DNA of 64,000 nucleotides from Actinocatenispora comari (GTDB lineage Bacteria > Actinomycetota > Actinomycetes > Mycobacteriales > Micromonosporaceae). Position numbers and translations under genes: made by a program. The notes under the pieces were generated by a model. The model made no database searches. It worked only from the letters and a program-made list of their open reading frames with translations, and was not told the origin of the DNA. Positions 17,257 through 19,284 of this stretch are shown here, in pieces. The stretch is from the NCBI RefSeq assembly GCF_017312725.1, contig NZ_BOPO01000049.1:1-64000 (forward strand), read 5' to 3'. Position 1 is the stretch's first letter. Each line of letters opens with the position of its first letter.

Positions 17257-17336
17257 ATGAGCGAGCGTCAGCGAGCGAATCACGAGCACAGCGCCTTCGA
17301 GCCTCGGGCCCGTTCGGAGCGAAGTGGAGAACGGGC
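17257..17336 (+). repeat. Mini-ORF repeat copy A (MSERQRANHEH type)
   Basis: This 80-bp unit starts ATGAGCGAGCGTCAGCGAGC and encodes a 27-residue ORF, MSERQRANHEHSAFEP..., ending in a TGA (17338-17340) that overlaps the ATG of the next gene at 17337. GAAGTGGAGAACGGGC before that ATG acts as a ribosome site. The MSERQRANHEH start matches the N-terminus encoded by copy C at 48299. The unit fills the gap between two ABC operons. Confidence 0.8.
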
Positions 17337-18371
17337 ATGAGCATCACGAGCATGGACACCACCCGGCGGCCGTCCGGCCGGTCGGGTACCGGGGGCGCCG
17401 AGCTCGCGGTGCACGCCGAGGGGCTGGTCAAGTCCTTCGGCGGGCAGCGCGCGGTCGACGGCATCGACCTGGAGATCCGCACCGGCGGCGTCTTCGGGGT
17501 ACTCGGCCCCAACGGCGCCGGCAAGACCACCACGCTGCGGATGCTGGCGACGCTGCTGCGCATCGACGCCGGCCGTGCCGAGATCTTCGGCGTGGACGTG
17601 GCCCGCCAACCGCACGTGATCCGCCAGCTCGTCGGCGTCACCGGGCAGTACGCCTCGGTGGACGAGAACCTGACCGCGCGGGAGAACCTGTGGCTGTTCG
17701 GCCGGCTGCACGGCATCCGGTCGGCGCGGGCCAAGAAACTCGCGGTGGAGCTGCTGGACCGGTTCGGGCTGGGCGACGCGGCGGACAAGACCATCGCCAA
17801 GTTCTCCGGCGGGATGCGGCGGCGGCTCGACCTCGCCGCGAGCCTGATCACGACCCCGCCGCTGATCTTCCTGGACGAGCCCACCACCGGGCTCGACCCG
17901 CACACCCGCGGCCAGATGTGGGACACCATCCGGGGCCTGGTCGCGGACGGCTGCACGGTGCTGCTGACCACGCAGTACCTGGACGAGGCGGACCAGCTCG
18001 CCGACCAGATCGCGGTGATCGACCACGGCCGCAAGGTCGCCGAGGGTACGCCGGAGGAGTTGAAGGCGGCGGTCGGCGACACCAGCCTGCAACTGGTGCT
18101 GGCCGAGCCGGAGCAGACCGGCGCGGCCGGCGACGTGATCCGGCGGGTACTGGGGCTCGACCCGATCCTCAGCCCGGAACGGTCCCGGCTGCAGGCGCCG
18201 CTGAAGCAGGCCGATCTGGCCGCCGAGGTACTCGTCGCGCTGCGCGACGCCGGCATCCGGGTGGCGTCGGTCAGCGTCGACCAGCCCAGCCTGGACGAGG
18301 CGTTCCTGACCCTGACCGGCCACCCGGCCGAACCGCAGGACGACGAGTCGACGAAGGAGGAACGGCGATGA
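17337..18371 (+). CDS. Daunorubicin-resistance type ABC ATPase (DrrA-like)
   Basis: The 344-residue protein has Walker A GPNGAGKTTTLRM, Q-loop GVTGQYASVDENLT, signature FSGGMRRRLDLA, Walker B LIFLDEPTTGLDP and H-loop variant TTQYLDEADQL. It ends in the C-terminal DrrA extension (SVDQPSLDEAFLTLTG). DrrA-type ATPases drive export of antibiotics or other lipophilic compounds with a DrrB permease, here the next gene. The start at 17337 overlaps the mini-ORF stop. The coding end GACGAAGGAGGAACGGCGATG is repeated 80 bp later before the permease. Cargo unknown. Confidence 0.9.
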   Translation: MSITSMDTTRRPSGRSGTGGAELAVHAEGLVKSFGGQRAVDGIDLEIRTGGVFGVLGPNGAGKTTTLRMLATLLRIDAGRAEIFGVDVARQPHVIRQLVGVTGQYASVDENLTARENLWLFGRLHGIRSARAKKLAVELLDRFGLGDAADKTIAKFSGGMRRRLDLAASLITTPPLIFLDEPTTGLDPHTRGQMWDTIRGLVADGCTVLLTTQYLDEADQLADQIAVIDHGRKVAEGTPEELKAAVGDTSLQLVLAEPEQTGAAGDVIRRVLGLDPILSPERSRLQAPLKQADLAAEVLVALRDAGIRVASVSVDQPSLDEAFLTLTGHPAEPQDDESTKEERR

Positions 18372-18447
18372 GTGAGCGTCAGCGAGTGAATCATGGGTAC
18401 TGCGTGCCGTGGTGCCTCATCGGCGTTCCGACGAAGGAGGAACGGCG
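18368..18447 (+). repeat. Mini-ORF repeat copy B with 26-bp flanking duplication
   Basis: This 80-bp unit, starting ATGAGTGAGCGTCAGCGAG, encodes a 27-residue ORF (MSERQRVNHGYCVPWC...) whose TGA overlaps the permease ATG at 18448. The 26 bases ending the ATPase gene (18349-18374, containing GAAGGAGGAACGGCG and ATGAGTG) are repeated exactly at 18429-18454. Without the unit the two genes would overlap as ATGA. Its GTGCCTCATCGG...TTCCGACGAAGGAGGAA segment is nearly the same as copy C. Confidence 0.85.
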
Positions 18448-19284
18448 ATGAGTGTCACCAGCGTGCTCGGTGAGCAGCGGGTGCGGCCGGCGGACCGGGT
18501 CGCCGCGGCGCGCCGCCGGATCAGCCCCCGCGAGGTCGTCAGCCAGACGATGACGATGGCGTGGCGGGCGTTGAAGAAGATGCGCCGCAACCCGGAGCAG
18601 TTCTTCGACGTGACGCTACAGCCGATCCTGTTCACCGCGATGTTCGCGTACATCTTCGGCGGTGCGATCGCCGGTGACGTGCGCAGCTACCTGCCGCTGA
18701 TGATTCCCGGCATCCTCGCCCAGACCGTACTGACGACCTGCATGGCCACCGGTACCCAGCTGCGCGAGGACATGGAGAAGGGCGTCTTCGACCGGTTCAA
18801 GTCGCTGCCGATGGCCCGGATCGCGCCGCTGGCCGGCCCGATGGTGGCCGACCTGGTGCGGTACGCGATCGCCGCGACGCTGACGTTCGGCATGGGCATC
18901 GCGGTCGGGTACCGGCCGGACGGCGGGGCGCTCGGGGTGCTCGGCGCGATCCTGCTCGCGATCATCAGCGGTTGGTCGCTGGCCTGGGCGTTCACCTGGG
19001 TCGGCACGATCGCCCGCAGCGCCCAGGCGGTGCAGGGCATCTCGATGATGATCATGTTCCCGCTGACGTTCCTGTCCAACGCGTTCGTACCGCTGACCTC
19101 CCTGCCGGGCTGGCTGCAGGCGTTCGTCCGGGTCAACCCGGTGTCGCACATGGTCACCGCGGCCCGCGACCTGGCCAACAAGGGCACGATCAGCGCCGAG
19201 GTGGGCTGGACCCTGCTGGCCTGCCTGGTGGTCGTGGCGGTCTTCGCCCCGCTGTCGGTACGCAGCTACCGCCGGCACCTGTGA
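18448..19284 (+). CDS. ABC-2 permease (DrrB-like)
   Basis: The 278-residue permease has six predicted membrane segments and the DrrB pattern: cytoplasmic N-terminus with MAWRALKKMRRNPEQFFDVTLQPILFT, then PLMIPGILAQTVL, MEKGVFDRFKSLPMARI and the TFLSNAFVPLTSLPGWLQ loop. It pairs with the DrrA-like ATPase upstream. ATG at 18448 has an ideal GAAGGAGGAA site supplied by the repeat. Upstream ATG at 18409 in the same frame is rejected because it lies within the mini-ORF. Drug or metabolite export is the family role; no biosynthetic cluster is seen nearby. Confidence 0.9.
   Translation: MSVTSVLGEQRVRPADRVAAARRRISPREVVSQTMTMAWRALKKMRRNPEQFFDVTLQPILFTAMFAYIFGGAIAGDVRSYLPLMIPGILAQTVLTTCMATGTQLREDMEKGVFDRFKSLPMARIAPLAGPMVADLVRYAIAATLTFGMGIAVGYRPDGGALGVLGAILLAIISGWSLAWAFTWVGTIARSAQAVQGISMMIMFPLTFLSNAFVPLTSLPGWLQAFVRVNPVSHMVTAARDLANKGTISAEVGWTLLACLVVVAVFAPLSVRSYRRHL

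Follow-up and report, generated by a model that had tools for sequence, protein, structure and literature searches.

A dispersed family of short mini-ORF repeats joined to gene starts in Actinocatenispora comari and other actinobacteria

The window, i.e. the whole analysed stretch of 64,000 nucleotides from Actinocatenispora comari, carries a short unit five times, at four sites (A, B, D1/D2 and C). A preliminary description of this DNA had proposed a dispersed repeat of mini-ORFs sitting at gene starts, and all five copies were recovered at the positions named there. Unit A (17257..17336, + strand, 80 nt) holds a mini-ORF of 27 aa, MSERQRANHEHSAFEPRARSERSGERA, and its TGA overlaps the ATG at 17337 of an ABC transporter ATPase gene (DrrA-like; 17337..18371, + strand), which was matched by PF00005 (8.3e-28), with DrrA1-3_C below its cut-off. 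The start of this unit is free-standing, 55 nt past the stop of the preceding gene. Unit B (18368..18447, + strand, 80 nt) overlaps with its start the stop of the ATPase gene. The stop of its 27-aa mini-ORF, MSERQRVNHGYCVPWCLIGVPTKEERR, overlaps the ATG at 18448 of an ABC-2 permease gene (DrrB-like; 18448..19284, + strand; PF01061, 3.2e-31, searched with 18451-19284). Unit B is flanked by a perfect 26-nt repeat, CGACGAAGGAGGAACGGCGATGAGTG, with the left copy at 18349..18374 and the right copy at 18429..18454 (both + strand). The interval formerly given for the units ended at 18454, which is the end of this repeat and not that of unit B.

The third site follows a sigma-70 family gene (1894..2478, + strand; PF04545, PF04542), whose stop is overlapped by the start of unit D1 (2475..2524, + strand, 50 nt, mini-ORF of 17 aa). 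The next ATG at 2525 opens unit D2 (2525..2595, + strand, 71 nt, mini-ORF of 24 aa), and its stop in turn overlaps the ATG at 2596. Short peptides coupled by ATGA had been claimed for these four units; with 27, 27, 17 and 24 aa for A, B, D1 and D2 and each TGA inside an ATGA shared with the next ATG, the claim holds. Unit C (48222..48299, - strand, 78 nt up to the tail GGCCG) is uncoupled. Its frame runs into a chorismate mutase (47901..48299, - strand; PF01817, 4.7e-09), of which it forms an N-terminal extension, and the native start of the gene is lost in the source genome. The coupled copies of this genome mostly measure 77 or 80 nt, compared to the 78 nt of unit C.

No Rfam match was found in the window at the gathering score, and the four unit peptides matched no family in NCBIfam and Pfam. 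A conserved protein domain as origin of the similarity was rejected on account of this result and of the fact that most units stop at the start of the gene. No inverted repeat of at least 14 nt pairs the ends of unit A or of unit B; terminal inverted repeats as in a MITE were thus not found at these two units.

The source genome (G000; 7.96 Mb in 151 contigs) was searched with three patterns. With ATGAGYGAGCGTCAGCGAG, allowing up to two mismatches, 45 matches were obtained, with the inner pattern CAGCGAGCGAAYCAYGRG, which lacks the ATG, 46, and with the tail motif 45. The reversed patterns gave 0, 7 and 0 matches, so that the repeat family, as supposed before, lies above chance. One 5' block is common to 42 places. 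Since the inner pattern contains no start codon, its matches are not selected for one. Nevertheless, 37 of the 46 open with RTGA and reach a closing RTGA within 60 codons, as against 32 of 279 other RTGAG sites of the same DNA, which bears out the suspected bias towards start sites. The nine uncoupled matches are the fused unit C, one in a long open frame (contig C109), one at a contig end (C42), the second half of a joined pair (C110), one with ACG replacing ATG (C123), two without RTGA at the tested places (C41 and C75) and two of chance-like appearance (both on C132).

Coupled units were also counted in the stretches around pattern matches, with a restriction to mini-ORFs that have 12-59 codons and a terminal RTGA; uncoupled rows had been dropped beforehand, and D2 was missed by the pattern. 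This count amounts to 56 units at 49 sites, six of which are tandem. At 46 of the 49 sites the next frame is open for at least 60 codons, with about half of the control RTGAG sites also starting such a frame. A ribosome site of the unit's own, which the preliminary description had noticed, is present in 53 of the 56 coupled units as GGAG, GAGG or AGGA shortly 5' of the next start (a count without control). Among the genes located 3' of units are adk, gatA, gatB, peptide deformylase, ABC transporters and sigma factors, the names being read from translations except where Pfam is cited. Nothing evident is common to the genes served. Unit A sits at a free-standing start; B, D and the gatB unit lie at stop/start overlaps. 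The overlap of unit starts with upstream stops was also considered as evidence and then discarded: the proportion first looked high (27/41), but it does not exceed the control, with 28/42 genome-wide against 24/42 for frame 0 and 52% at control sites.

The length of the units was measured from the tail motif to the 5' block, disregarding the frame; 35 of the 45 tail matches were usable, and ten with unrecognisable ends were dropped. In line with the expected conservation of the frame, 31 of the 35 lengths keep the frame: 77 nt and 80 nt occur 14 times each, and 65, 74 and 116 nt once each. The other four measure 69, 72, 78 and 79 nt. For the 72-nt unit the 5' end was misplaced, and the true frame of 21 codons couples. 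The 69-nt unit reads in frame through the following unit, the 79-nt unit has lost its start codon, and the 78-nt unit is out of frame. If frames were free, 31 of 35 would be found in frame with a probability of 2e-11, a value that is only indicative because the copies share descent. As proof of coding, the codon positions gave a mixed result and were set aside: in the 5' block, third positions are free at codons 2, 4, 8 and 9 but not at codons 3, 6 and 7, and therefore the nucleic acid is constrained too.

The 3' half of the unit is a palindrome that ends in the RTGAG of the next gene, e.g. CTCATCGGCGTTCC-GACGAAGGA-GGAACGCCGATGAG. Three unlike tail types were counted, with 31, 39 and 17 distinct tails, respectively. 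Type 1 is the tail of this genus. It is represented by unit B (18416..18452, + strand), with arms of 14 bp, a loop of 9 nt and both GGAGG and the downstream ATGAG inside. Type 2, with an AGCGnAGCG-like loop, occurs in the source genome and others; in unit A it extends from CTCGGG through the ATGAG of the downstream gene (17303..17341, + strand). The third type belongs to 28-codon units of named records, mostly of Aeromicrobium and Nocardioides; here the 3' arm contains the Shine-Dalgarno sequence, and the start codon lies immediately beyond it. A tail of the kind seen in the source genome is also present in A. rupis (L144). Standard pairs account for 91.0, 77.7 and 76.1% in the three types, compared to shuffle means of 81.8, 66.1 and 66.1%, and cells changed on both sides number 36, 61 and 28 compared to 10.7, 24.9 and 10.4. 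For no type did any of 1000 shuffles attain either observed value, and with the best slid register the pairs amounted to 55.5, 43.2 and 56.3%. The hairpin thus covaries in all three tail types, although the counts of compensatory changes may be inflated by the relatedness of the copies. The folding energy of the tails is only moderately stronger (median -21.3) than that of random 48-mers of the G+C-rich source genome (-17.3), and 3 of 47 tails lie below the 5th percentile of the latter. Counts of G-U versus A-C, tried to separate an RNA from a DNA hairpin, did not differ from the shuffles.

The orthologous junctions were compared in the other three genomes of the genus (G050, G070 and G012), and for gatA and adk also in other genera. 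According to the identity of GatA to that of the source (99% for G050, 97% for G070 and 91% for G012), G050 is the nearest and G012 the farthest of the three. At each unit-free start, the preceding 20 nt were scored against the sequence flanking the unit on the left and against the end of the unit. Junctions in relatives that lack the insert, and have an RTGA(G) start there, were found for every window site; they are clean at A, C and D, while B is ambiguous between insertion and loss. With start-site bias, frame conservation and these junctions, the interpretation of the preliminary description is supported for the most part. At A, 5' of drrA, the unit is absent in G050 and G070; the sequence of G070 agrees with the flank in 17/20 and with the unit's end in 3/20 positions. 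The match in G012 was excluded as non-orthologous (69% identical). The sigma junction D carries two units in the source genome, one in G050 and none in G070 and G012, with 20/20 to the flank and 7/20 to the unit's end in G070. At the chorismate mutase (C), G070 and G012 have no unit, whereas G050 has one of 72 nt that is likewise in frame with the gene; taking flank and unit from G050, G070 matches in 20/20 and 11/20. Read in this way, D and C, present in G000 and G050 and absent in G070 and G012, would each need one insertion, and the same applies to A, present in G000 alone of three genomes.

A further clean junction is that of gatA-gatB. In the source genome the unit has ATGA at its left edge and GTGA at its right edge; without the unit G050 reads ..gtgacggcATGACC and G070 ..gtgaccgcGTGAGT, with flank matches of 19/20 and 20/20 and matches to the unit's end of 10/20 and 11/20, respectively. 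G012 has a longer, dissimilar stretch with a unit-like piece at this junction. On either side of the units the shared bases are RTGA, in many cases RTGAG. At B, between drrA and drrB, a unit is present in G000 and G050; G070 has none, a tail-like sequence precedes the start, and flank and unit's end match equally (18/20 each). At gatC-gatA the source genome has a unit, and G050 and G070 have none; here flank and unit's end match in 15 and 13 of 20 positions for G050 and in 14 and 15 of 20 for G070. Because the unit-free sites at B and gatC-gatA resemble the unit's end, the unit was possibly lost there rather than never gained, and gatC-gatA was no longer counted as a clean empty site. Before adk (secY-adk), G000 has one unit, G050 and G070 have two each, and the unit of G012 is diverged; by eye, none was recognised in 15 other genomes. 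The proteins at the junctions are mostly 87-99% identical between species that differ in the presence of the unit.

Two side observations concern gatA. GatA of G012 begins with MSERQRATHR, the first ten codons of the unit in place of the native N-terminus (L175, 1483-1512, reverse strand). In another genus (G003, L182) the gatC-gatA junction 5' of gatA contains an apparently decayed unit (gtgagcgggtgtgacaggcgaaccatcgagccc...), which may have inserted independently at this place.

Beyond the source genome, the 26-nt 5' block was searched with up to two mismatches. It is present in 96 of 300 genomes of the taxonomic family, covering 13 of 44 genera, at up to 58 places per genome and with 0 matches in the control columns; 204 of the 300 genomes gave no match. 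In a sample of 394 genomes of the class, 14 were positive: two of the three from the source family (f1), 11 of the 12 from genus g91 and a further one from family f41, so that in this sample the block was seen only in families f1 and f41. Family f1 is taken by us to be the Micromonosporaceae, as L116 (G117, f1) and L155 (Catellatospora coxensis) share the same unit and flank. None of the 35 genomes of family f8, presumably Mycobacteriaceae, contained the block. Without mismatch it occurs in 33 stretches of named records, among them Aeromicrobium, Nocardioides, Pseudonocardia, Actinocatenispora, Catellatospora and Micromonospora, and the records of Micromonospora, Catellatospora, Aeromicrobium, Nocardioides and Pseudonocardia exhibit the same anatomy. 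The mini-ORF ends in RTGA in 32/35 family loci, 31/37 named records and 27/27 class loci, with the start codon included in the pattern and at least two loci common to the first two sets. Of the nine other cases in these two sets, five have open frames that exceed 300 codons and are likely fusions. Plasmids and phages gave no blastn match to unit B.

The best explanation for these results, to which we assign a probability of about three in four, is a non-autonomous mobile repeat family that behaves like the mycobacterial MIRUs, inserts at RTGA(G) and keeps the host gene translated. The target would be the RTGA(G) at a start codon or at a 4-nt stop/start overlap, and insertion would leave RTGA on both sides. 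The left one would become the start of the mini-ORF, usually of 24-28 codons, which may take over the former initiation signal of the host gene or the terminating ribosome; the right one would be stop of the mini-ORF and start of the host gene at once. The hairpin is predicted to hold the Shine-Dalgarno sequence, together with the start codon in tail types 1 and 2. A ribosome on the mini-ORF would open it, terminate at the TGA of RTGA and reinitiate at the overlapping start, aided by the Shine-Dalgarno sequence of the unit. Translation of the peptides and this relay of ribosomes are deduced from the anatomy of the unit. The relay would accord with the two models of coupling given in the relevant passages of PMC12548453. 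By keeping the host gene translated, the unit would make its own presence cheap. Spread is presumably due to an enzyme acting in trans, and tandem copies and losses probably arise by recombination between the repeats of the units.

The preliminary description knew of no report of such a family. MIRUs, however, are described in the same terms: according to passages of PMC12548453 (citing Supply et al. 1997), PMC2734929 and PMC4213456, they are short repeats (40-100 bp in PMC2734929), dispersed and in tandem, which seem to be mobile, insert at start codons and hold an ORF coupled to the next gene with a spacing of -4 nt. Set against these descriptions, by which MIRUs are known here, the likeness extends to dispersed and tandem repeats (mostly of 77 or 80 nt), to the 4-nt overlap of the repeat ORF with the next start, seen inside and outside the source genome, and to insertion at start codons, for which A, C, D and gatB offer clean empty RTGA(G) sites and B and gatA ambiguous ones. 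In contrast to the MIRUs as portrayed in these passages, which are mycobacterial, the present units occur in the taxonomic family of the source as well as in Aeromicrobium, Nocardioides and Pseudonocardia. For the units, unoccupied sites in relatives are documented, and so is covariation in a hairpin that covers the following start. A text search of open-licence papers returned no printed description of the unit sequence and, as far as the texts were accessible to it, nothing relevant on MIRU-like families outside mycobacteria.

Since the principle is already in print for MIRUs, the units constitute a MIRU-like family in other actinobacteria and no new principle. For MIRUs, the insertion at start codons is worded as insertion at DTGA; it was proposed in 1997 for mycobacteria, and the same behaviour is now found in other actinobacteria. 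What is added here is the occurrence of the principle in the latter, empty beside occupied sites in sister species, exchangeable covarying tails and fusions to host proteins. A bolder reading, which we regard as possible though rather doubtful, would make the units a class of mobile elements of their own in several actinobacterial families, independent of MIRUs by descent. They would then owe their survival to acting as self-sealing translation cassettes, composed of a conserved 26-nt 5' module and exchangeable hairpin tails, in which one hairpin might serve both as signal for insertion at RTGA and as lid over the host start; N-terminal fusions (chorismate mutase, GatA of G012) would have followed later.

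Two other known systems are related in part. The enterobacterial RU-1/2/3 elements (PMC2759123) are likewise small mobile sequences able to encode peptides, but are characterised as MITE-like, whereas units A and B have no end-joining inverted repeat of at least 14 nt. In bicistronic designs and uORF coupling, as treated in the coupling passages of PMC12548453, a short upstream ORF also supplies ribosomes and opens structure over the ribosome site; those cases are engineered or limited to single loci, in contrast to a natural, dispersing element.

Among the alternatives, regulatory cassettes of the host deserve most attention, although we consider them unlikely. Hairpin and mini-ORF would then tune particular genes and have spread by occasional duplication or recombination without being selfish. 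The strong conservation of frame and hairpin would agree with this, as would the tandem arrangement ahead of adk in G050 and G070 and at six of the 49 sites of G000, and the tail-like sequence that remains at two unit-free sites. But the occupancy of junctions varies between species with closely similar proteins, the genes served share nothing evident, and about two thirds of the family genomes manage without a match to the block.

A much smaller probability is given to a REP-like element moved by a Y1/HUH transposase of the TnpA-REP type, for which the palindrome of the tail would be a DNA signal and the coupling a by-product of the target. REP, BIME and REPIN sequences (PMC2817692, PMC8266576) resemble the units in being small, dispersed, palindrome-bearing and non-autonomous, but REPs are extragenic, while the units lie at start codons and in frame. 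The palindromic tail does end in ATGAG, and PF01797 (Y1) matched once each in G000 and G050 and at least once in the unit-rich genomes G170 (35 unit matches), G288 (26) and G293 (24). The five unit-rich genomes G070 (41), G012 (17), G174 (58), G158 (22) and G043 (22), however, had no PF01797 match. Because such genomes exist, a Y1 transposase is not needed, and no transposase is linked to the family; in addition, in-frame lengths are not required by this model. Still less probable is that the units were made singly, with no mobile family, by local duplication of a native segment of ribosome site and start: the perfect repeat around B and the match of 15/20 between the 20 nt before the unit and the unit's end at gatA would suit it, but this match falls to just 4, 7 and 11 of 20 at A, D and gatB, and the dispersed copies, at 42 places of the source genome and in genomes of other families, share the single 5' block and not the flanks, which contradicts it.

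Under the preferred reading of a mobile, MIRU-like family, the units show how a repeat can get into core operons while these plausibly stay readable. As sister species offer empty, single and double sites, in operons including gatCAB and secY-adk, mechanism and fitness cost become testable in harmless strains. Furthermore, dozens of coupled mini-ORFs per genome are indicated, and the units would be a route for genes to gain new N-termini.

Two minor observations were made besides. The source-genome contigs C1 and C124 share, near base 29,900, one unit together with its flanks at an identical coordinate, which suggests a contig duplicated in the assembly. Upstream of the chorismate mutase, a short frame (48399-48464, - strand) has the translation VLFDARFYGYGTGDPAAVGRA*; after it comes a stem that resembles a terminator and has a T-rich tail (48352-48365, - strand). 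Read by eye, frame and stem look like a Phe/Tyr attenuator; the relative L259 reads VRFYFYYGYGS at a similar place.
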